This document shows, one piece after another, positions 14,635-26,767 of a stretch of DNA of 64,000 bases. The stretch covers positions 1 to 64,000 of the forward strand of contig CAMBBS010000002.1 in the NCBI GenBank assembly GCA_945863875.1, written 5' to 3'. The translations under genes and the position numbers were made by a program. The notes under the pieces were generated by a model. It searched no databases and had not been told where the DNA came from. It worked only from the letters and a program-made list of their open reading frames with translations. The stretch's first letter is position 1; each line of letters opens with the position of its first letter. The DNA is from Desulfopila aestuarii DSM 18488 (GTDB lineage Bacteria; Desulfobacterota; Desulfobulbia; Desulfobulbales; Desulfocapsaceae).

Positions 14635-15378
14635 TTATTTGAAAAATTGCAACAGGGCGTGCAGCGTTGTCAACGGATGGGGTGGACAGCCAGGAATATA
14701 GAGATCCACCGGGATAAGGCTGTTTAAGTCGCCGACTATCTCAGGGCTGCCGAAAAAGGGTCCGCCGGAAATGGCACAACTCCCCGAGGCTATCACCACC
14801 TTCGGCGAAGGAACCGCCTCAAAGGTCGAGATGAGCGCCGAGCGCATGTTTTTTGAAATCGGGCCGGTAACATGTATTCCGTCCGCGTGGCGCGGAGAGG
14901 CGACAAAATCAATGCCGAATCTGCCCAGGTCGAAAAAGGGCGTGGCAAGGACGTTGGTGTCCGCTTCACAGGCATTGCATCCACCGGCGGACACCTGGCG
15001 CAACTGGAGCGATCGGCCGAAGAGCTTGCGAAAATGTTTTTTCGCATGTGCCGCAAGCGCCGGCAAAGATCCATCGGAGACGAGGGCCTCCCGGGTCGCC
15101 GTGCCCATACCGAAATCCTGGCTAAAGGTCACAAAGGCGCCTTCTGATACATTCTCACACCGTCCGCAGAAGGTGCATTTGCCGAGATCGATCTTTCGTT
15201 CCGCACCCAGAATGGCGTCCTGGGGGCAGATTGCCTCGCAGAGACTGATAATCGACGGATCACAGTCACTGTTGATCTTTGGCAGCCCGCGGTATCGCCG
15301 ATACAGATTAATCGGTTCTTTCGGGTAGCTGGAGGTCTTGCACCCCTGCTCAATCCTGTTTCTGATGATTTTCAACAT
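14635..15378 (-). CDS. Ehr/Hyf-type complex, fused ferredoxin-small subunit (HyfHI-like)
   Basis: A 247-residue protein joining a HyfH-like ferredoxin domain (about residues 30-90) to a NuoB/HyfI-like small subunit (about 125-247). The small-subunit part keeps the four Cys of the proximal [4Fe-4S] cluster: GGCNACEAD (C134, C137), GSCAIS (C201) and GCPPHP (C231). In the ferredoxin part, C68, C71 and C74 (CTFCGRC) plus C51 (CP) could bind one cluster. The other cluster's ligands are mostly lost, with Ser at the expected position 78. It is the last gene of the operon and should link the electron donor to the large subunit. Confidence 0.85.
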   Translation of the reverse strand: MLKIIRNRIEQGCKTSSYPKEPINLYRRYRGLPKINSDCDPSIISLCEAICPQDAILGAERKIDLGKCTFCGRCENVSEGAFVTFSQDFGMGTATREALVSDGSLPALAAHAKKHFRKLFGRSLQLRQVSAGGCNACEADTNVLATPFFDLGRFGIDFVASPRHADGIHVTGPISKNMRSALISTFEAVPSPKVVIASGSCAISGGPFFGSPEIVGDLNSLIPVDLYIPGCPPHPLTTLHALLQFFK

Positions 15379-15397: not shown

Positions 15398-16909
15398 TCA
15401 AAGATCAAAGCCGCAATAGGAGAGATTAAAGCTCTTATTACAAAGAGGGAAATCGGAGATCTCCTGATTTCTCAGAGCCATGGCCAGCCCGGTCCAGTTG
15501 TGAAAAGAAGGGTCCTTCACCTTATAGCGAACGATTCTGCCGTTGCCATCGGTCAAGAGACAGTGCGACAACTCTCCCCGCCAGCCCTCATTGACGGTCA
15601 CCACGAATGCATCCGGTTCAAGAGATAGTTCATGCATGGTGGTCTTTGCACTGCGCTCCCCCGATCTGTTTAAGAATGTTCTGATCAGATAAATGGCATG
15701 AAATATCTCCTCACGACGCACCATGGCCCGGCTGTAGACATCACCGTTGACCATTTCGTTTCTATTTGCCGGCAGCGGTTCGTAGGCCTCGGTGGGAAAG
15801 GATACCCGCGCATCATATTCAATTCCCGACGCCCTGCCGCAGTAACCGACCAATCCAAGGTCTTCCGCCATCTGCCTGGCTACCGTGCCGGTATGTTCAA
15901 ACCGAGCCTGTACCGTGTGGGCGGTAAAGAGCAGGTCACAGACGTGTCGTATCTCCGGTTCTAACTCTTTCAACTTATCTTCGATTATTTTCACCTGCTC
16001 CACATTCATGGTCTTCGACACCCCCCCCGGCAGCACGAGACTTTTGCCAAACCGATTGCCGGACAGGACCTGGAGCAGATTGAGAAACTCTCCCCGGATC
16101 CTGCCGAAATAGGCCGCCGGCGGATTAAAGGCGACATCACCGCTCAAGGCGCCCAGATCACCGATATGGTTGGCGATACGTTCCAGCTCAAGGGCTATCG
16201 AACGAACAAGCCTGGCCCCGGGGTCAACCGAGAGACCGGCCAGAGACTCAAGGGCCTGACAGCAGCAGAGAGCATGGCCGATACTGGTATCTCCGGCAAT
16301 GCCCTCGCAAATAACCGGCAGCCGTTTCAGGGGGACCTGGGTCAAGAGATTTTCCACTCCGCGATGCTGATAGCCGAGCTGAATTTCCAGGGAAAAGACC
16401 TCTTCTCCGGCACATTGAAAACGGAAGTGTCCCGGCTCGATAATACCCGCATGAACCGGACCAACCGCCACCTCATGGATGGCTTCTCCCTCGATTTGAA
16501 AGTAAGGGTAGTTCCCCGGGATCTCTTCCCGATAATTATTGCCGAAGACATCCGGGACCTTACGATAATTCTCATGATAGCGGACCATCTTCAACCAGGG
16601 GTGATTGAGCGGCGTAATACCGTATTGTTCGGCTATTTCCCGCTCAAACATATGGAATTTTTCACTGCAGGCCATGGTCAGCGACCGAAACTCCTCCCCC
16701 ACCTCGGTGCCCAGGACATAGAGGTCCTTATTGCGTACAACGGCCAGCAGCCGGTTTTTTTCACCGTCAACAAAGGCAAAAAACTGGACGACGAAGCCGT
16801 TATTACTGACAAAATCGGCCATTACTTCGGCAAAACGATTAAAGGGAACGCAGGGGATGGCCGATCGTTTGACCGCTTCGCCGTTCTTTATCCGCAGGAG
16901 GTTATCCAT
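15398..16909 (-). CDS. Ehr/Hyf-type complex, large subunit lacking [NiFe] cysteines (HyfG/HycE-like)
   Basis: A 503-residue NuoCD/HycE-like subunit. A NuoC-like head covers about residues 1-125 and a NuoD/hydrogenase-large-subunit-like part the rest. Real group 4 hydrogenases bind Ni-Fe through CGxC and DPCxxC. Here the first motif is ICEGIAGD, with one Cys (C201) and Ile at the second position. The last is DPSFHNW, with Ser468 and Asn471 in place of both Cys, similar to complex I NuoD. A PVHAG loop at about residue 151 is kept. Hydrogenase activity is therefore unlikely. The start at MDNLLRIK is chosen for its GGAGG site. It overlaps the hyfF-like stop by 8 bp. Confidence 0.88.
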   Translation of the reverse strand: MDNLLRIKNGEAVKRSAIPCVPFNRFAEVMADFVSNNGFVVQFFAFVDGEKNRLLAVVRNKDLYVLGTEVGEEFRSLTMACSEKFHMFEREIAEQYGITPLNHPWLKMVRYHENYRKVPDVFGNNYREEIPGNYPYFQIEGEAIHEVAVGPVHAGIIEPGHFRFQCAGEEVFSLEIQLGYQHRGVENLLTQVPLKRLPVICEGIAGDTSIGHALCCCQALESLAGLSVDPGARLVRSIALELERIANHIGDLGALSGDVAFNPPAAYFGRIRGEFLNLLQVLSGNRFGKSLVLPGGVSKTMNVEQVKIIEDKLKELEPEIRHVCDLLFTAHTVQARFEHTGTVARQMAEDLGLVGYCGRASGIEYDARVSFPTEAYEPLPANRNEMVNGDVYSRAMVRREEIFHAIYLIRTFLNRSGERSAKTTMHELSLEPDAFVVTVNEGWRGELSHCLLTDGNGRIVRYKVKDPSFHNWTGLAMALRNQEISDFPLCNKSFNLSYCGFDL

Positions 16910-18329
16910 GAATCGTGCCTCCAATTATTTTGATTGTATTCATTATGGCGGTGTACATCGCACTCGGCATCCAGACACAGAGGGTAATAGATGCAAGCAG
17001 CAAAATATAAGGCGGTACGATGCGCAGCACGTTCTCCCGCACCAGGACTTCGTGCTCGCGCACACCAAAAGACATATTCGTGAAAATCTGCGCGGCGCCG
17101 GCCAGCACCAGCAGCATACTGAGCATAAAGAGGATTGCACTGACCGGATGGCCGGTCTGAAAGGCACCAATCAGGATAAACAGCTCGCTGATAAAAATGC
17201 CGAACGGCGGCAAGCCGGAAATGCCGACGAAGCCGGCAAAAAAGGACAGAAATGTTTTTGGAAAATATTTGATCAAGCCCCCTATTCGATTGATAATTTT
17301 GGTGTCAAATCCAAGATGAATATTGCCGGCGGAGAGGAAGAGCGACGACTTGATGAGCGAATGATGAATCATATGCAAAATCGCCCCATAGAGAGCAAAC
17401 CCACCGATGCCTACGCCAAAGGCAATGATGCCCATATTCTCGATGCTCGAATAGGCGAGCAGGCGCTTGTAATCCGGCTGCCGGAGGATAAATACTCCGG
17501 CGACAAACATCGACAGCAGCCCGAAGCCAATGAGGATATTGCCGGAGAACTCTCCGAGCCCCGCCAGGTACATCACGGTATGCACTTTATAGATGCCAAG
17601 GAAGGCACAGTTGAGCAGTGCCCCCGACAACAAGGCCGAAGCCGGACAGGGCGCCTGGCTGTGGGCATCGGGAAGCCAGGTATGCATGGGCGCCAGACCC
17701 ATTTTCGTACCAAAACCAATGACCACGAAGATGAATCCAACTTTGAGCCACATGGGATCCAGCTGTGTGGCGACCTGATTCAGGAAGGTAAAGCTGAGAG
17801 AAATTTCTATCTCGGCAATATCAATGGACAGGGTGATAAAGAAACAACCGAGTAAGGCTAACGCAATGCCCACGGAACAGATCAGGACATATTTCCAGGT
17901 CGCTTCGAGTGCCTCTTTAGAGTGGTGCAGGAAAATAAGCGGGGCACTGACCAGCGTTGTTGCCTCGATGGCGATCCACAGGACAATCGGATGATCGGCG
18001 AGGGTTACCATACTCATGGTGCCGAGAAAAAGCAGCATGCACCCGGGAAACACCGTGCCATTACTCAGCCCTGTCTCCTCCATGTAACGCATGGAATAGC
18101 AGGCAATGCAGAGAAAGATGAAGGAGGTCACCAGGAGCACCAGCATCCCCTCGGGGGTCTCTGAAAAAAATCGCTCGGCATAGACCGGCAGCTTGCCGAG
18201 CCAGGCCATGATCGTGAGCTGAAAATGAAGAATGGCCGTGACAAGCAGCACTCCCCGCCCGAGATAAGGAGGGACAGCCAGGGTGACCAGACCCGTCAAC
18301 ATCGGCAGTATAAAAATGAGCTCTAACAT
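16902..18329 (-). CDS. Ehr/Hyf-type complex, NuoN/M-like membrane subunit (HyfF-like)
   Basis: A 475-residue polytopic membrane protein of the proton-translocating antiporter-like family (Proton_antipo_M). Recognisable parts are AIEATTLVSAPLIFLHHSKEALEATWKY, LGLAPMHTWLPDAHSQAPCPASALLSG and KRLLAYSSIENMG. The length and position after a HyfE-like gene match HyfF. It is expected to move protons or sodium ions, coupled to electron transfer in the peripheral arm. It starts 4 bp after the HyfE-like gene's stop. Confidence 0.88.
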   Translation of the reverse strand: MLELIFILPMLTGLVTLAVPPYLGRGVLLVTAILHFQLTIMAWLGKLPVYAERFFSETPEGMLVLLVTSFIFLCIACYSMRYMEETGLSNGTVFPGCMLLFLGTMSMVTLADHPIVLWIAIEATTLVSAPLIFLHHSKEALEATWKYVLICSVGIALALLGCFFITLSIDIAEIEISLSFTFLNQVATQLDPMWLKVGFIFVVIGFGTKMGLAPMHTWLPDAHSQAPCPASALLSGALLNCAFLGIYKVHTVMYLAGLGEFSGNILIGFGLLSMFVAGVFILRQPDYKRLLAYSSIENMGIIAFGVGIGGFALYGAILHMIHHSLIKSSLFLSAGNIHLGFDTKIINRIGGLIKYFPKTFLSFFAGFVGISGLPPFGIFISELFILIGAFQTGHPVSAILFMLSMLLVLAGAAQIFTNMSFGVREHEVLVRENVLRIVPPYILLLASITLCVWMPSAMYTAIMNTIKIIGGTIHG

Positions 18330-18333
18330 TTTT

Positions 18334-18987
18334 TCAGTCCTTTAAACGATTGAGGAGATCGGTATCTATATCATCAAACGCATGGTTGATATTGTGCAGA
18401 ATAATCCCCATGACCATGACCCCGACGAGCAGGTCGAGCAGCAAGCCGAATTCAACCATATAAACGGTGTGGAAGTGTTTAATAAGTGCAGTGCCTATCA
18501 GAAATATACCGTTTTCCAGCATCAGGTAGCCGATGACCTGGGTTATGGCCTTTTTCCGACCCATCATCAGAAAGAAGCCGGCGGACATGGTGGTAATAGC
18601 CGTTGTCAGTATCAGTTCCTGTCCGCTGGGCACGGCGAGATGCAGCCTGTCGGTAATAAAAACCGACAGCAGGATGATTATCAGGCCGGCAAACAGCGAG
18701 GCGTGGTAGCCGATGATCGGCTCTATCTCCCGCTGAATTGCAATACGTTTCAGGGCAACATAGAGCAGGACCGGGATGAGAATGCCTTTCGTCAGGATCA
18801 TCACCTGAAAGAAGATCAGCCCACCGCTGCCCATACTGCTGTGATGTTCAAGCAGAAGAGGAAGAAGAGAGACGAGAAACCCCTGCACCGCCATGATCTT
18901 GATCAGGGTGATGAGCCTGCTGGAGGCCAGTGACAACAACACGGAGAGCAGGATAACCACCATGATCATGTCATTTATATTTTTCAT
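18334..18987 (-). CDS. Ehr/Hyf-type complex, HyfE-like membrane subunit
   Basis: A 217-residue hydrophobic protein with about six to seven membrane segments, for example MVVILLSVLLSLASSRLITL and LTTAITTMSAGFFLMMGRKKAITQVIGYLMLENGIFLIGTA. The latter resembles the NuoK-like half of HyfE. Its place between the NuoH-like and NuoN/M-like subunits is the order of E. coli hyfC-E-F, with hyfD absent. It shares one base with the upstream gene's stop, so they are probably translationally coupled. Confidence 0.82.
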   Translation of the reverse strand: MKNINDMIMVVILLSVLLSLASSRLITLIKIMAVQGFLVSLLPLLLEHHSSMGSGGLIFFQVMILTKGILIPVLLYVALKRIAIQREIEPIIGYHASLFAGLIIILLSVFITDRLHLAVPSGQELILTTAITTMSAGFFLMMGRKKAITQVIGYLMLENGIFLIGTALIKHFHTVYMVEFGLLLDLLVGVMVMGIILHNINHAFDDIDTDLLNRLKD

Positions 18988-19901
18988 TAGATAAATCCCA
19001 TGGTAAGAATTGCCGCAAAAACCACCAGGATGGAGGAGGCCAGGACAAATTTGGGTACCAGGCTCATCTGAAATCGAGCCATTGTCGATTCCACCAGGCC
19101 GATGGTTACATAGATCAGCACCAGCACCCCGTAAAAAATCGGCAGATTCAGCAAGCCGCCGGCAGGGTTAAGCGGACAGACAATCAAGGTAAGAAAGGCC
19201 GCATAAAAATACAGCTTATAAAAGGAACCAAGTTCTATCAGGGCCAGATCGGGGCCGCTGTGGTCGAGGATCATCACTTCATGAATCATCGTCAGTTCCA
19301 GGTGGGTCGCCGGATCATCGACCGGGACTCTTGAGTTCTCGGTAAGCAGCACCATAAACAGCGCAACAATGACAAGGAGCAACAGCGCTCCCGAAGGACC
19401 AGTCAGGCTGATCGGCGTTGCTCCGGTAAAATATTCGCCAAAACTCAGCGCGCCGGTCATGCGGTAAAAGAGGATGAGGATGGCAAAAATGGACGCCTCG
19501 GCCAAGGTGCCGAAAAACGCCTCGCGGGCCGCCCCCATGCCCTGAAAAGGCGACCCGGTGTCGAGGGCTGCAGCGATGGTAAAGAACCGTCCGGTGGCCA
19601 TGATATAAAACAGCACCAGCACATCTCCATGAAAGGAGAGTACCGGGACAACGGCCGCCAGCGGGAAAAACAGCAGAATCATGATTCCCCCGGCACAAGA
19701 GACAAGCGGGCCCAATTTGAAGACAAAAGTCGTGGTGCTACTGTACACCGAGCCCTTACGCAGGAGTTTCAGCAAGGTGTAATACTTGATCAACAGCGGC
19801 GGGCCTTTCTTCCCGGCAAAGAGTGCCTTCACCTTTAAAATTATTCCCGGGAATAAGGGTGCCGACAGAAGAGCTATGCCGATTGAGACGAGAGATTCCA
19901 T
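18987..19901 (-). CDS. Ehr/Hyf-type complex, NuoH-like membrane subunit (HyfC-like)
   Basis: A NuoH/HyfC-like subunit of 304 residues with about eight membrane segments. It has the hallmark VDDPATHLELTMIHEVMILDHSGPDLAL loop that faces the large subunit in this family and in complex I. The ATG at 19901 is chosen because AAAGGA precedes it; the ORF track's start is six codons earlier. It anchors the soluble electron-transfer arm to the membrane. Confidence 0.88.
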   Translation of the reverse strand: MESLVSIGIALLSAPLFPGIILKVKALFAGKKGPPLLIKYYTLLKLLRKGSVYSSTTTFVFKLGPLVSCAGGIMILLFFPLAAVVPVLSFHGDVLVLFYIMATGRFFTIAAALDTGSPFQGMGAAREAFFGTLAEASIFAILILFYRMTGALSFGEYFTGATPISLTGPSGALLLLVIVALFMVLLTENSRVPVDDPATHLELTMIHEVMILDHSGPDLALIELGSFYKLYFYAAFLTLIVCPLNPAGGLLNLPIFYGVLVLIYVTIGLVESTMARFQMSLVPKFVLASSILVVFAAILTMGFI

Positions 19902-19952
19902 ATGCATTCCTTTGAACATCAGCTCATAAATTACGCGTCCCGTTTGTCGGGA

Positions 19953-21914
19953 TCAAATAAAGAGGACCAGCAGCAGAACCAGTATTGCCACAATGATGTA
20001 GCCGATATACAGCTGGACATTTCCATGCTGTATCCAGCGGAGTTTTCTCAGCACAGCAAGCAGGGGAAAGGCCACGCCGTAAATCATGGCAGCCTCGGCG
20101 ATATCATCGACCCGGCTTGTATATGCGGTCCGTTTCGGAAAGATCTTCTGCAATCGAACCTCTGTCTCTCGTATCAGCACGAACGGCCGGAAAAAATCAA
20201 CCACGCTCCGGGCGTAGGAGGTACCGGTATACTGAATTCTGGCGGTAGGCCTGGTGAAACCGCAGCCCCAGGTCGGCCCCTCGGTGATCTCCTTGCCCCG
20301 GTAGAGAAGTTTTCGGCAAAGGACGACAAAGAAGATAATCGCCAGAAAGAGACGGGAACCCAGTGCAAGATGAGCGCCGATGGTTGCAACAAGCACGGTA
20401 TTGACCTGGCCGAGAAGAGTGATATCCGCCAGGCCGGCAAAAGCGAGCTTGATAAAACTTGCGGGAAAGATGCCGATCACCAGACACGCACCGGCCAGAA
20501 GGACCATTGGTACGGTCATCGCCCAGCCTCCCTCGGTTGCCCGCCGTGCATTTTCGGTACGAGGTTCGCCAAGAAAGACAATGCCGACGACCTTGGTGAA
20601 ACAAAAAGAAGCCAGGCCGCCGATTACCGCCAGGGAAATTATCGCTATCATCGTCAGCAACAAGGTTGACTGGCTATACTGCAGGCCCTGGAAGGCGGCA
20701 AAATAGACTAAAAACTCACTGACAAATCCATTAAAAGGCGGCAGGCCGGAGATAGACACAGAACCAACCAGAAAGGTTTTCCCGGTAACGGGCATCCTCT
20801 TCATCAGCCCGCCCAGCTGGTCGACATGGCTGGTGCCGGTTCTTCGAATGACTGCCCCGGCGCCAAGAAACAGCAGTGACTTGAAGATGGAGTGATTCAG
20901 CACATGCAGCAGACAGCCGGCAAAACCAAAACCCGCCATGACCGCATCTCCCTGCGCAACACCAATCATGCCAAGGCCCGCTCCCATGAGAATGATGCCG
21001 ATGTTTTCGACACTATGATAGGCGAGCAGCCTTTTTATGTTGTGCTTGCCAAGGGCATAGAGAACGCCGAGCAGTCCTGATATTATGCCAAACACAAGCA
21101 CGGTCTGGCCCAGGCGGATGTCTGTTGCACCAAGAACGAAATAAAATCGGAGAATGCCGTAGATACCCATCTTGATCATCACCCCGGACATGATGGCCGA
21201 GATATGGCTCGGGGCAGCAGGGTGCGCATGGGGCAGCCAGATATGCAGGGGAAAGATGCCGGCCTTTGAACCAAAACCAAGAAAGGCGAGCAAAAAGACC
21301 ATCAGCTTGACAGATTCAGGAATGGTGGCCGCCTGGGCAAAATCAAAACTGCCGCTATGGCTGAAGATAACCCCAAAAGAGGCAAAGATAAGCAGGGCCC
21401 CGGCCTGGGCAAAGAGAAAATAGAGATATCCCGCCGCTCTGGTCGTCGTCTTCTCATAATCGTACATCACCAGGAAATAGGAAGAAATGGACATAATCTC
21501 CCAGACAAGCGCAAAGGTAGGCATGTTCGCAGCAGCCGTCACCAGGGCCATGGAGACGATAAGAATGTTCGTGAAGAAGTAACTGATTGCCGTCCGGAGG
21601 GAATTCTCGGCACGCTCGAAATAGAAACAACTATAAATGGCCGCCAACGGACAGATAAGAAAAATCGGCAGCAGAAAAAAGAAGCTGAGCGAATCAAAGG
21701 TAAAGGCCAGAGTAAAGACATGCAGCCACGGCCAGGACCAGGCGAGACTGGCCGGATCAGCGTTTGCGGAAAAGATCGAATAAAATCCTGTGATACAGCC
21801 GATTGTGGTCACACCGACAGAAAGGCATTTGGTCAGCATAAACCAGCGGTAGGTCAAGAGGGGTAACGCTCCCCCCACGAGGATCATTGCCAGGGCCAGG
21901 AGAAAAATATTCAT
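19953..21914 (-). CDS. Ehr/Hyf-type complex, NuoL-like membrane subunit (HyfB-like)
   Basis: A large antiporter-like membrane subunit of 653 residues if it starts at MNIFLLALAMIL; the longer ORF (690 residues) adds a polar, unlikely N-terminus. It carries ALVWEIMSISSYFLVMYDYEKTTTRAAGYLY, AGIFPLHIWLPHAHPAAPSHISAIMSGVMIKMGIYGILR and KRLLAYHSVENIGI, all typical of HyfB. The C-terminal 90 residues form a cytoplasmic stretch with a last helix, as in HyfB. It is the first gene of the B-C-E-F-G-HI operon. Confidence 0.88.
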   Translation of the reverse strand: MNIFLLALAMILVGGALPLLTYRWFMLTKCLSVGVTTIGCITGFYSIFSANADPASLAWSWPWLHVFTLAFTFDSLSFFFLLPIFLICPLAAIYSCFYFERAENSLRTAISYFFTNILIVSMALVTAAANMPTFALVWEIMSISSYFLVMYDYEKTTTRAAGYLYFLFAQAGALLIFASFGVIFSHSGSFDFAQAATIPESVKLMVFLLAFLGFGSKAGIFPLHIWLPHAHPAAPSHISAIMSGVMIKMGIYGILRFYFVLGATDIRLGQTVLVFGIISGLLGVLYALGKHNIKRLLAYHSVENIGIILMGAGLGMIGVAQGDAVMAGFGFAGCLLHVLNHSIFKSLLFLGAGAVIRRTGTSHVDQLGGLMKRMPVTGKTFLVGSVSISGLPPFNGFVSEFLVYFAAFQGLQYSQSTLLLTMIAIISLAVIGGLASFCFTKVVGIVFLGEPRTENARRATEGGWAMTVPMVLLAGACLVIGIFPASFIKLAFAGLADITLLGQVNTVLVATIGAHLALGSRLFLAIIFFVVLCRKLLYRGKEITEGPTWGCGFTRPTARIQYTGTSYARSVVDFFRPFVLIRETEVRLQKIFPKRTAYTSRVDDIAEAAMIYGVAFPLLAVLRKLRWIQHGNVQLYIGYIIVAILVLLLVLFI

Positions 21915-22089
21915 TGGTTCTTGATTGTCGTTTTTCTTGTTGTCCGCAAGAACAGGCAAACCGATTTCCAGCACAATTGCTGTGTTCAAGCGGGCTTTCA
22001 CACTGGGCGCGATGCCCCAAAACATTGCAGCACATATTTCTTACAGCTGGTCATTTACCCCTGGGCTAAAATAATTCGCCCCCCTTGCA

Positions 22090-23181
22090 TCAAACATTTT
22101 TTTCCTGCGCCATCAGGGCGACAAAGAGATCATCCTGCTCCAGTTGATGTGTGAGCGCGTCATCGGTACCAGCCCGGTGTAAGCAGGCGGCCCATGGAAC
22201 AAAATATCTTTTTCCGCTTCCCCCGAAAGAGCCGAAGTCAATATCCAGTCCGGCAACGCACAGTAAATTTTCTGAGTCTTTTCCCCCGTGGAAGTGATGC
22301 ATTTCGTCAACAGCGTGGGAAAATTCACTTTGCAGGTGGATCATCGCCGCCAGCAGTTGGGGATGAGCATCTGTTACAATGTGACCGATTACCGGCAGAA
22401 GAATCTCGGCAAATGGGCTTGTGGTACGGTTACGACCACTGCTGCCGTCCTTGCCGTTTACCTGCCGGGTGGATGCAAAAACAAACAGGTCAGGGGTAAG
22501 GAATCTGCCGATTCGCTGTTTTTTTACGCTACTCCAGGGAAAATCGTTTTCCCGGAGAAGATGTAAAAATTGTGCGGAGAGCCGGTAGGAGACAAAAGAA
22601 TCGGAAACACTGTGGGGGGAACAATGACCTTTTCCGTCGAGTTCGACCATTTTGTCGAGAAGGATCTTCAACTTTTGGTCGGCATTCTCTTGTCCACTGT
22701 TTATGAGGTCCGGCGGCAGGATAACAAGGTACTGGTCTGCTGCATGGCAGGCTAGATATATATGATTTTGGGCAGATTGATACTGCGCCAGATATGGGGC
22801 AATAAAATTGGCTATCGTGCCTTCCGTCCGGCAGTCCGACGTCTCATGGATAAGCGGACGAGGCAGACCGCCATACACCCCCCAGTTCGGATTATAGGAT
22901 ACCCTGGCTGCAAGGAGAGTGACTGAATCATTTCCCGAGCCGATACCATTTTTTGCCGCGAAAAGAGAAGCGGCATGGTCATCACCGTGCATATCCAGAG
23001 CGGCGGATGGTTCAGGGGTCAGAACAATCGGCTTTCTGAATCCAAGGGAAAGACAATAATTTTTCAACCGGGGCAGAAACTCCCGGCTGGAGATCATCCG
23101 TCCCCTGATGTGACAGGACGGTGTTCTTCCAGCGAAAATGGACAGGAAATGCGAGTTATCGGTTAAAATATGTGCGGACAT
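22090..23181 (-). CDS. unrecognised 363-residue protein in sigma-54-controlled unit
   Basis: I do not recognise this protein. It has no signal peptide and no membrane segment. It is rich in His and Cys spread along the chain, for example DMHGDDHAASLFAAKNGIG, IYLACHAADQYLVILPPDL, DEMHHFHGG and LLCVAGLDIDFGSFGGSG. These look like an alpha/beta enzyme fold, but I cannot name a catalytic motif. The ATG at 23181 is preferred over the track's 23241 because GGGAG precedes it and the longer form would overlap the upstream gene. It follows a small ORF and precedes the membrane complex on the same strand. Confidence 0.65.
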   Translation of the reverse strand: MSAHILTDNSHFLSIFAGRTPSCHIRGRMISSREFLPRLKNYCLSLGFRKPIVLTPEPSAALDMHGDDHAASLFAAKNGIGSGNDSVTLLAARVSYNPNWGVYGGLPRPLIHETSDCRTEGTIANFIAPYLAQYQSAQNHIYLACHAADQYLVILPPDLINSGQENADQKLKILLDKMVELDGKGHCSPHSVSDSFVSYRLSAQFLHLLRENDFPWSSVKKQRIGRFLTPDLFVFASTRQVNGKDGSSGRNRTTSPFAEILLPVIGHIVTDAHPQLLAAMIHLQSEFSHAVDEMHHFHGGKDSENLLCVAGLDIDFGSFGGSGKRYFVPWAACLHRAGTDDALTHQLEQDDLFVALMAQEKNV

Positions 23182-23218
23182 TTTTTGATCAACTCCCATG
23201 GCAGACAGAAAAATCTTT

Positions 23219-23449
23219 TCATTCCTCAAAGGTAAACCCATACCATTTCAGGGTATCGTCACCGTCCTGGGGTGTATAGGCAATCTCACTGTTCTCAATC
23301 TTGCCGTGCAATTCTTTCATCCAGGAAAGAGCCTGGTTTTTCGAAAAAAACGGTCCCACTTCCGTCAGCGAGGTGATATCGAGCATGCGATGCCGGTGAA
23401 AGCTGGTCACGTCTTCTTTCTTCTGGAAAATTCCAATTATTATTTTCAC
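23219..23449 (-). CDS. unrecognised small protein, first gene after the sigma-54 promoter
   Basis: The ORF track gives 107 residues from a GTG at 23542, but a sigma-54 promoter covers 23520-23535, so translation should begin downstream of about 23510. The first suitable codon is GTG at 23449, giving a 76-residue protein starting (V)KIIIGIFQKKEDVTSF and ending WYGFTFEE. It is soluble, with a possible small alpha/beta fold, and of unknown function. Its stop (TGA) lies 37 bp before the next gene's preferred start. The ribosome binding site is weak, so the start stays uncertain. Confidence 0.55.
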   Translation of the reverse strand: MKIIIGIFQKKEDVTSFHRHRMLDITSLTEVGPFFSKNQALSWMKELHGKIENSEIAYTPQDGDDTLKWYGFTFEE

Positions 23450-23519
23450 CGTGGCTATCCCGGAAAATGGTTTGTTCTTTGCTCCTGTTCTCTCCAGGCC
23501 TGCAATTTTCGGCTTGAGC

Positions 23520-23535
23520 TGCATACGGCGTGCCA
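23520..23535 (-). promoter_or_regulatory. near-consensus sigma-54 (-24/-12) promoter
   Basis: The minus strand reads TGGCACGCCGTATGCA. Against TGGCACG-N4-TTGCA it has a single mismatch, and the GG and GC pairs have the required 10-base spacing. It points at the two unknown genes (23449 to 22090), with an NtrC-type regulator gene just upstream. Confidence 0.7.
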
Positions 23536-23621
23536 TTGCCACAGAACATATATAATATTTATATTATTATATATTTTTTCACCAAAGAGGCTTGGACGTA
23601 TCGAACCGAAGAGGATCATGC

Positions 23622-23654
23622 GGGGCAAAATGCCCCAGGCGGGCATTGTGCCCC
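23622..23654. promoter_or_regulatory. tandem dyads, probable NtrC-type activator binding sites
   Basis: Two inverted repeats with the pattern GGGGCA-N3-TGCCCC lie side by side: GGGGCAAAATGCCCC (23622-23636) and CGGGCATTGTGCCCC (23640-23654), centres 18 bp apart. They sit about 90-120 bp upstream of the sigma-54 promoter, with a very AT-rich stretch (23548-23580) between that could bend. This is the layout expected of an upstream activating sequence. Confidence 0.6.
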
Positions 23655-23684: not shown

Positions 23685-25040
23685 TTAATCAATCAGTTTC
23701 TGCAGTTTCCTATACAGTGTTTTTCGATCAATCTGCAGAATGTGTGCGGCAACGGACTGGTTGCCCTTTACCGTTTTAAGGACATGGGCGATATACCGTC
23801 TGCTCATCTCCTCGAGAGATATCAACTCGATCGGGTCGGCCGTTTCAAGAAAGAGCGCGTTTCCGGCATGGCTACGAATTTTCTGCGGCAGATCTTCCGA
23901 GACTATCCTGTCAAACAGGGTCATGGCCACCCCGTGCTCCATGGCATTACGGAGTTCCCTGACGTTTCCCGGCCATGCATAACCGAGCAGTCTCTTGGCG
24001 GTTGATTCGGCCAGTCCGGTGACCTTTTTCCCCTGCTTCCCGGCGAAATCCCGGACAAACTTATCGGCCAGGAGAAGGATATCCGTCCCGCGCCTGCGTA
24101 ATGGAGGGACATCCACTTTGATCACATTGAGCCGATAGTATAAATCCTCGCGAAACAGCCCCTCGGCAACCGCCCGTTCAATATCAATATTCGTCGCGGC
24201 TATCACCCGCACATCAAAAGGTATTTCCCTGTTCCCGCCTACCGGTCGGACGGTACGCTCCTCGAGGGCCCGCAGCAGTTTCGGCTGCAGGGACAATGGG
24301 ATATCGCCGATCTCATCGAGAAACAGGGTACCGCCATCCGCCTCCAGTAACAAACCCTTGCGGTCCTGCCAGGCATCGGTAAAAGACCCTTTGATATGGC
24401 CAAAGAGCTCACTTTCCAGCAGGTTGTCAGGAAGGGCGGAACAGTTTATCGCGACAAACGGTTTTTCTTTTCTGCGGCTGTATGCATGCAGCGCCCTGGC
24501 GGTGATTTCCTTTCCCGAGCCGCTTTCTCCGGTAATGAGTACCGAGGTCTCGGCATCGGCAATGCGCTCCAGGCGGGAAAAGAGATCTTTCATGACCTGA
24601 CTCTCCCCGACCATCCCGGAGAAGGAATGAATCCGCGCAAATGCCTCACTGAGCACCTGCACCTGCTGCTTGAGCTTTCGGTGATCGACGGCCCGTTGCA
24701 GGGCAACGGCGAGGATATCGAGATCCAGCGGTTTGGTGATAAAGTCATAGGCACCGACCCGTATCGCTTCGATGGCGGTTTCCATCGATCCGAAAGCGGT
24801 CATCATCACCACGGGGATCTCCGGCCACGTGGCAACCACCTCCCGGCAGACCTGCACGCCGCTCACATCGGGCAGATTAATATCGGTGAGGATCACATCC
24901 GGCTGTTCCCGGTCAATGACGGCCACCGCTTTCAGGCCGTGCACACAGGCATAGGTACTGAACCCGCGTCTTGCCAACCCGACATCGAGCATCTCACACA
25001 TATCTTGATCATCTTCAATGATGAGGATATGACCGATCAT
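23685..25040 (-). CDS. sigma-54-dependent response regulator, NtrC family
   Basis: A 451-residue regulator in three parts. The receiver domain (residues 1-120) has IIEDD and the phospho-acceptor Asp in DVILTDINLPD. The AAA+ domain carries Walker A GESGSGKE and Walker B GGTLFLDEIGD. The C-terminal Fis-type helix-turn-helix is SVAAHILQIDRKTLYRKLQ. The loop that contacts sigma-54 is GSFTDA rather than GAFTGA, a variant at two positions. Its start overlaps the stop of the histidine kinase gene by 4 bp. It probably acts on the sigma-54 promoter just downstream. Confidence 0.93.
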   Translation of the reverse strand: MIGHILIIEDDQDMCEMLDVGLARRGFSTYACVHGLKAVAVIDREQPDVILTDINLPDVSGVQVCREVVATWPEIPVVMMTAFGSMETAIEAIRVGAYDFITKPLDLDILAVALQRAVDHRKLKQQVQVLSEAFARIHSFSGMVGESQVMKDLFSRLERIADAETSVLITGESGSGKEITARALHAYSRRKEKPFVAINCSALPDNLLESELFGHIKGSFTDAWQDRKGLLLEADGGTLFLDEIGDIPLSLQPKLLRALEERTVRPVGGNREIPFDVRVIAATNIDIERAVAEGLFREDLYYRLNVIKVDVPPLRRRGTDILLLADKFVRDFAGKQGKKVTGLAESTAKRLLGYAWPGNVRELRNAMEHGVAMTLFDRIVSEDLPQKIRSHAGNALFLETADPIELISLEEMSRRYIAHVLKTVKGNQSVAAHILQIDRKTLYRKLQKLID

Positions 25041-26512
25041 TGTTCTTTCTCCACAAGGCCAAGAAAAATGGAAAACTGAGCCCCCCTGACCGGACGGTTC
25101 AGAACTTCAATCCATCCGCCGTGCTCTTCAAGAAGTTCCCGGGTGATGGACAGGCCGAGCCCCGTGCCCAGACCTATCTGTTTCGTCGTGAAAAAGGGGG
25201 TGAAAATTTCCTGCAGTTTATCTTCGGGAATACCCTCTCCTTCATCAATGACGTCGATGCGGATAAATTTTTCCAGTTGATCATCGGTGTGCAACATCGA
25301 TTTGAGTTTGGTGTTGGATATATCTACCTGCACATTCTTACCCTTCGGGGTTGCCTGAATCGAGTTCAGAATAACATTCATGAACACCTGTTGAATCTGT
25401 TGCGTGTCCATACGGCAGGCCAGCTTCGTTCTGGGGGCGATGTTTAAAACAAGGGGAATACCCTGCTTGGCGGCAATGGGTGAGAGAAGATTAAAGACCT
25501 GACGCATGATCGTCTCGACACTCTCGAGGATTTTCGGCTGGGATTTTTTCTTTCGCGAATAATCAAGCAGTTGCCGGATGATGAGAGTCATCCTTTCCGC
25601 CTGGTTTTTGATAATCCTGGCACAATCGACTATTTCATCGTGGACCAGGGGTTCGGCAATGATCATTTTCGCTCTTCCGTCGACAACATTGAGCGGGGTA
25701 CCGATTTCATGAGCGATGCCGGCGGCGATCTGGCCCACGGTCGACAATTTTTCGGTATGCCGCAGTTGTTCCAGGGTTTTCAATCGGGCCAGATGTTCAA
25801 AGTGAATCTTTTCCTTGGCGATCAGCAGCCTGGTGCACATATCGTTCATGATTCCGGCCAGCCCGGCCAGCTCGTCTTCTCCCTTTATTTCCAGATCCGG
25901 AATCAGGTTCCCCTTGCCTATCTCTATCGCCTTTCGCGAGAGTTTCTCCAGGGGTTTTCTGATTTTTACATGGATGAGAAAATAGACGATAATACTCGCG
26001 ACAAAGGCGAGCAGGGTGGTGATTGATAAGGAACGAATGAGCATTTTCTGCGTGAATTCGGCCCGGGGCAGGAGCGACTGGGTGAGCTGGATGGCCCCGG
26101 ACCGCTCGCCTGGAATGGCCACGGGCATGAGGGTATAGCGCTGTTTCAGGCGCTGTTCATCAAGAGCAGTAAAAGAAACCGGCGCCACTGTTTCGGCCGG
26201 CCTGAGGCTGTGCAGCTCGGGATGGGCCGCGCCATGCACCGGCAGAATTTCATCCAGCCAGACCCAGCGAATATCAATTAACCGGTTGGCGTGATTGGCA
26301 TCTTCGATAAGATGGATCGCCGTTTCGGGACCACTCTCCTGCCAGGTATGGGAGATCATTCCTGCCATAATCCAGGCGATCTGTCCGGCATTATCAGCCA
26401 TATCAGTATCAAACTGCTGTATTTCTGCCTCATAATTGAGATTACCGTGAATAATCAACATGCTGAGTATTCCCAGGAGCAGGATGGTATATATTTTTGA
26501 AAACAGTCTCAT
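25037..26512 (-). CDS. membrane-bound sensor histidine kinase
   Basis: A 491-residue kinase from ATG 26512, which places a membrane helix (IYTILLLGILSMLIIHG) right at the N-terminus; the track's longer form uses a TTG start. A periplasmic sensor region of about 150 residues, a second helix (TTLLAFVASIIVYFLI), a HAMP linker, a HisKA domain with the phospho-acceptor GIAHEIGTPLNVV, and a HATPase domain (NVILNSIQATP, DEGEGIPEDKL, GTGLGLSI) follow. It pairs with the overlapping response regulator. The signal it senses is unknown. Confidence 0.92.
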   Translation of the reverse strand: MRLFSKIYTILLLGILSMLIIHGNLNYEAEIQQFDTDMADNAGQIAWIMAGMISHTWQESGPETAIHLIEDANHANRLIDIRWVWLDEILPVHGAAHPELHSLRPAETVAPVSFTALDEQRLKQRYTLMPVAIPGERSGAIQLTQSLLPRAEFTQKMLIRSLSITTLLAFVASIIVYFLIHVKIRKPLEKLSRKAIEIGKGNLIPDLEIKGEDELAGLAGIMNDMCTRLLIAKEKIHFEHLARLKTLEQLRHTEKLSTVGQIAAGIAHEIGTPLNVVDGRAKMIIAEPLVHDEIVDCARIIKNQAERMTLIIRQLLDYSRKKKSQPKILESVETIMRQVFNLLSPIAAKQGIPLVLNIAPRTKLACRMDTQQIQQVFMNVILNSIQATPKGKNVQVDISNTKLKSMLHTDDQLEKFIRIDVIDEGEGIPEDKLQEIFTPFFTTKQIGLGTGLGLSITRELLEEHGGWIEVLNRPVRGAQFSIFLGLVEKEQ

Positions 26513-26767
26513 GGCCAAGACAACGCTGCATGCAGTGCAGCTTTCAGGGGGGTATGGCTCGACGCCGGGCGATAACCGCAAAAGTTAAAGCGATGAAACG
26601 GAGATATAATAGACAAGCGAAGATATTGTCAAACCGAAAACAGTGGTCGACCCGTTTTCCCCCATGGCCTTGCAACATTGTATCCGCAAGGGGCAAGGCG
26701 GCGGCAGCACCTTTGTCAGGTTTACCGTATCGCCATAGTATGGGAAAAATTGTGCTGGAGATTCAGG

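Follow-up and report, generated by a model that had tools for sequence, protein, structure and literature searches.

What does the sigma-54 promoter beside the Ehr gene cluster of Desulfopila aestuarii DSM 18488 control, and do the genes around it form one system? The locus lies in a stretch of 64,000 nucleotides of contig CAMBBS010000002.1 (hereafter the window), and the kinase, regulator, dyads, promoter and operon genes are all on its minus strand. The first-pass annotation had described an NtrC-type regulator and its kinase immediately upstream of the promoter, and both were found there: a sensor histidine kinase with HAMP, HisKA and HATPase_c domains (25037..26581, Pfam), which lies next to the regulator in those orthologous loci that reach that far, and a sigma-54 response regulator (23685..25040, Pfam/NCBIfam) with the receiver, AAA+ and Fis HTH domains of the NtrC-type layout in Pfam, and whose scores reach the cut-off of none of the listed NCBIfam models. 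Exact -24/-12 spacing had been claimed for the promoter, and in TGGCACGCCGTATGCA (23520..23535) the GG/GC spacing is indeed correct, with ATGCA instead of TTGCA as the -12 element; from its position, transcription is predicted to start at about 23509. Two adjacent 15-bp dyads and an AT-rich stretch, placed by the same annotation about 100 bp upstream, are also present. The proximal dyad GGGGCATTTTGCCCC (23622..23636) matches GGGGCA-N3-TGCCCC exactly and the distal dyad GGGGCACAATGCCCG (23640..23654) has one mismatch (CGGGCATTGTGCCCC); their centres are 18 bp apart, at distances of 108 and 126 bp from the C of the -12 element, and both are presumed activator sites. Domain layout, upstream dyads and a -24/-12 promoter are shared with NtrC-family systems that have enhancer dyads (AtoC, ZraR and NtrC), whereas the operator GGGGCA-N3-TGCCCC and the target differ.

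Within the window alone, the sigma-54 promoter pattern occurs at chance level (7 sites at no more than two mismatches, while 11 are expected), so its significance rests on comparison across genomes. The exact dyad is found only once in the 4.69-Mb genome to which the window belongs. Outside the operator, this genome has 10 further single-mismatch dyads compared with 6 for a reversed-pattern control, which is not far above the control, and no other regulon target is therefore claimed. One of these 10, within ehrS (15223-15237 of the window), is probably due to chance.

Analysis of 57 related genomes (about 218 Mb) revealed orthologs of the regulator in 16 of them, the class being defined by at least 61% identity, with the next homologs reaching about 45% at most. 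The class is present in 16 of the 28 Ehr-bearing genomes and in none of the 29 genomes without Ehr (P-value = 5e-7, Fisher test, kinship uncorrected; G001, where the contig is truncated, was counted as Ehr-bearing from the other Ehr genes that it carries). Among named relatives, Desulfopila sp. IMCC35006 is the closest, with a regulator that is 86% identical. In the gap between regulator and operon, the dyad was detected in all 16 loci (12 exact and four with one mismatch) and a good -24/-12 element in 15, with only a degraded one in G012, while shuffled gaps gave on average no exact dyad and 0.03 dyads at up to one mismatch. The 57 genomes contain 30 exact dyads in total, 12 of which fall inside the 16 gaps (6.1 kb together), where 0.0005 are expected; the related genomes are not independent, and a P-value on this enrichment would overstate it. 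Across loci, the dyad itself is followed in rank by an offset of 18-19 bp, that of a tandem partner which is often degenerate, and several loci have an additional copy 96-163 bp before the promoter. Wherever contigs extend far enough, the gene order is kinase, regulator, a gene for a 76-aa protein (S76) and a gene for a 383-aa protein, each where present, and Ehr. At the level of sequence, this conservation strongly supports a dedicated switch made of kinase, regulator, enhancer and sigma-54 promoter. The proposal of the first-pass annotation that these elements make up one coherent system is thus borne out by the comparison it had suggested, that of dyads and gene order in related genomes, since kinase, regulator, dyads, promoter and operon are kept together. 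A separate exact GGGGCATTTTGCCCC dyad was seen at G031:C69:30796-30810, in a genome without the regulator class and away from its Ehr contig.

The target of the switch differs from what had been proposed. The promoter had been assigned to the two unknown genes directly behind it, but five of the 16 regulator-bearing loci have no 383-aa gene, and in one of these, G011, both small genes are absent while kinase, regulator, dyads and promoter are kept directly before Ehr. Ehr is thus the constant target, and the two small genes appear as accessories of an operon that the promoter serves. It would be quite unlikely that control by the regulator stops at the two small genes and that Ehr has a promoter of its own. 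From the 383-aa gene to EhrA there are 64-180 bp, depending on the start of EhrA, which would leave space for such a promoter; however, no sigma-70-like promoter or terminator is listed on the minus strand in this gap, and G011 and the four other loci speak for the Ehr operon as the target. S76 was identified in 16 of the 57 genomes, all of them Ehr-bearing, and the 383-aa gene adjoins Ehr in 42 of 68 usable loci of named genomes (38 directly upstream and four directly downstream; 11 truncated loci were left out), with the other 26 copies located elsewhere. Of the refuting outcomes named beforehand, neither a lack of dyad conservation nor an absence of co-occurrence between small genes and regulator was observed, though the 383-aa gene is missing from the five loci mentioned above.

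Both products had been described as unrecognised, which still holds for the 76-aa protein, without known relatives, and no longer for the 383-aa protein. S76 (23219..23449) probably starts at GTG 23449; this start lies downstream of the promoter, whereas the longer frame of 107 codons in the list of open reading frames would begin upstream of it. Its AlphaFold model (pLDDT 91.8) predicts a beta-alpha-beta-alpha-beta-beta fold, for which the fold search obtained no credible PDB match. Searches with S76 alone returned nothing useful from Pfam or NCBIfam, and there are weak hints of SPOR/DUF4170. By its sequence S76 is a new protein. Tandem duplicates of S76 occur in two genomes (L053:4667-5215 and G027:C1:3518158-3518730).

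Downstream of the small genes, a subunit set like that of hydrogenase-4/Ech is present in one gene cluster. It comprises EhrA, a HyfB/NuoL-like antiporter-type subunit (19953..22025, probable start ATG 21914; Pfam PF00361 and NCBIfam), EhrB, which is NuoH/HyfC-like (18987..19919; PF00146), EhrC, a HyfE-like membrane subunit (18334..18987) recognised by position and conservation and named after the analogous Geobacter EhrC (PMC7894505), EhrD, a HyfF-like antiporter-type subunit (16902..18329) recognised by cross-matches with EhrA and by conservation, EhrL, the group-4-hydrogenase-like large subunit (15398..16924; Pfam and alignment to 7z0s), and EhrS, the NuoB-like small subunit with a ferredoxin-like N-terminus (14635..15378; PF01058 and Fer4). 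EhrL aligns with the large subunits of formate hydrogenlyase (7z0s) and membrane-bound hydrogenase. In the alignment with 7z0s, the first Ni-binding Cys pair is replaced by Ala and Thr. The C-terminal pair is likewise broken, as judged from the sequence itself, which has S at the first position and, at the second, G beside a Cys. Such broken Ni-binding motifs agree with an Ehr complex and not with a hydrogenase. Behind ehrS, in the same orientation, comes a cytidylate-kinase-like gene (PF13189, 13625-14467), which several genomes keep near Ehr.

The relationship of the 383-aa protein (22090..23241, start uncertain) emerged from its family. The window protein alone had no match in Pfam or NCBIfam and nothing useful in the PDB, a first genome scan with it gave no match, profile searches of the PDB with the family produced chance matches only, and the search of the window's own genome with PF18599 (LCIB_C_CA) was negative. 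The family consists of two types, a conserved type, here called intact, and a diverged type, which is confined to the genus of the window among the genomes examined. PF18599 matched nine of nine intact members in a first set and nine of nine in a second (best E-value 5e-6); the matches are weak but consistent and cover the first half of the model, and two members exceed its 25-bit cut-off (25.2 and 26.3) while all others fall below it. When the intact type was compared with a reference profile built from nine bona fide LCIB proteins of the same phylum, a match restricted to the N-terminal third of the family was obtained (probability 95, E-value 2.8e-8), in which CRDE, HIAID and ACG pair with CSDE, HVGYD and SCG, the presumed zinc-binding Cys, His and Cys. 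From this alignment and the known beta-carbonic-anhydrase pattern, we infer that the intact relatives carry the Cys-His-Cys zinc ligands. The intact and window types align with each other at an E-value of 4.6e-62, whereas the window-type profile compared directly with LCIB found no match (E-value 0.13). For the window protein, an AlphaFold model (pLDDT 72.5) was also searched with Foldseek, and its four best PDB matches all have the LCIB fold (the PtLCIB4 entries 5b5z and, twice, 5b5y, and the 'CCM related protein' 6kfs; probability 0.91-0.99, E-value 0.01-0.06, TM below 0.5). Bona fide LCIB proteins themselves (PF18599, E-values 1e-40 to 1e-55) were seen in a few genomes of the phylum (L148-L156).

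As indicated by sequence comparison, the 383-aa family descends from beta-carbonic anhydrases of the algal LCIB type. That it is unrelated to carbonic anhydrases, with an LCIB similarity that arose by chance over a short motif, would agree with the failure of the window protein and the window-type profile to find LCIB directly and with family matches that mostly stay below the Pfam cut-off; this is nevertheless distinctly improbable, as each of the 18 intact members scanned matches one and the same model in one region, all three presumed zinc ligands fall into register in the profile comparison, an independent structure search puts LCIB first, and some family members have SulP and DabAB genes as neighbours (see below). 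Most relatives have the N-terminal Cys-x-Asp, His and Cys motifs in common with the LCIB/LCIC family (PF18599; PDB 5b5x, 5b5y and 5k5w), and the fold predicted for the window protein may resemble the fold of that family. In contrast to LCIB/LCIC, the family members are about 390 aa in length and conserved over a long C-terminal region, the ligands are missing from the window copy, and the link is to Ehr and not to a pyrenoid.

Members of the diverged type have a deletion across the region of the first Cys and, without exception, another residue in place of the second; the His is substituted in most of them, with two members keeping it. The window protein has a gap, Arg and Glu at the three positions, and because all three zinc ligands are lost, it is probably non-catalytic and not an active zinc enzyme. 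Among LCIB homologs that keep the zinc ligands, some are inactive (PMC5876011). The tree is compatible with one loss of the ligands or with several. In most Ehr loci of Desulfobulbales, by comparison, the ligands are retained, and an LCIB-like gene stands beside Ehr in dozens of members of this order, including the cable bacterium Electrothrix gigas.

Loci outside the regulator class tell most about the dyads. No GGGGCA dyad was found within 1 kb upstream of LCIB-like/Ehr loci without the orthologous regulator. Six such loci have a different, divergently encoded regulator (36-39% identical) and a sigma-54 promoter, and in five of the six (L081, L084, L088, L090 and L097) a dyad GTTGCA-N3-TGCAAC lies 78-80 bp above the -24 element. 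Regulator and dyad thus vary together while the GCA-N3-TGC core is retained, and the change of the dyad with the regulator is the best evidence here that it is the regulator's site; the dyads are presumed to be activator sites specific to the adjacent regulator. It is extremely improbable that they are instead RNA hairpins (a terminator or mRNA-stability element) ending the kinase-regulator operon, as their position just past the regulator stop codon and their perfect or near-perfect inverted repeats might suggest, since the further copies 96-163 bp before the promoter lie far from the stop codon and the operator changes with its regulator at a kept distance from the promoter, and the terminator version was rejected for want of a T-run and of any entry in the terminator scan. 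In the same five loci, an extra small open frame, UspA-like by eye, precedes S76.

With the dyads taken as activator sites, the locus would very likely be a Desulfopila-like, sigma-54-controlled Ehr operon with its own two-component switch and an accessory subunit derived from an LCIB-type carbonic anhydrase. The kinase would sense a signal and phosphorylate the NtrC-type regulator, whose binding to the tandem GGGGCA-N3-TGCCCC dyads, about 110-126 bp upstream, would depend on phosphorylation. The bound regulator would activate sigma-54 polymerase at 23520-23535, and a single transcript from about 23509 would then span S76, the LCIB-like gene and all six genes of Ehr. The Ehr complex would be an ion-pumping complex like complex I and the group-4 hydrogenases, without an intact Ni site, and the 383-aa protein, its zinc ligands lost, probably a non-catalytic (structural or regulatory) physical partner of it.

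The presence of an LCIB-like gene in the operon is a hint that Ehr deals with CO2 or bicarbonate, and we infer a coupling to such chemistry. Two unlinked intact LCIB-like genes directly follow a gene for a SulP-family transporter (PF00916 and STAS; L082:7765-9921 and L145:5227-7443), and on a Nitrospirota contig DabA (PF10070, E-value 2e-267) and a NuoL-like gene of the DabB type share 11 kb with a LysR regulator and an LCIB-like gene (L140:9980-21092), the LCIB-like gene being about 4-7 kb from the DabB/DabA pair. These neighbourhoods fit a role in inorganic carbon. In DAB2, a beta-carbonic-anhydrase-like soluble protein, DabA, is encoded and works with a NuoL-like membrane subunit, DabB (PMC13144422), and Ehr also has NuoL-like subunits. 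However, DabA (PF10070) and the LCIB-like proteins are different families, DabB acts with DabA alone and without hydrogenase-like redox subunits, and PF10070 was not detected in the 383-aa window protein by Pfam and occurs only near the distant Nitrospirota relative; the likeness is a resemblance in parts and not membership. Ehr might even be a third ion-gradient-coupled CO2/bicarbonate machine besides DAB and the cyanobacterial NDH-1MS, with an LCIB-type carbonic anhydrase as peripheral subunit of a complex-I-like pump and a zinc-free regulator in the window's genus, a doubtful reading which, if true, would supply a substrate for a complex that has long gone unexplained.

The Ehr (Ech-hydrogenase-related) complex of Geobacter sulfurreducens (GSU0739-45) shares the NuoL-like, HyfE-like, large and small subunits with the window cluster, which differs in having its own kinase and regulator, a sigma-54 promoter, S76 and the LCIB-like gene. 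According to a proteomics study its role has never been investigated, and its subunits were more abundant with formate than in hydrogen-containing conditions (PMC7894505), which would fit a CO2-releasing condition and proves nothing. The main text of a study of RpoN in this species does not mention GSU0739, GSU0740 or GSU0745 (PMC2725144). In the literature searched, of which the coverage was incomplete, no paper connects Ehr with LCIB-like proteins, and the association appears to be undescribed. For complexes without a known substrate, it makes the function of Ehr testable, with CO2/bicarbonate or CO2-releasing formate chemistry as the lead, and the dedicated regulator with its single-site operator opens a genetic way to learn when the cell needs Ehr. 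Away from Ehr, LysR-type regulator genes were also observed beside or near LCIB-like genes (L070, L106, L113 and L140).
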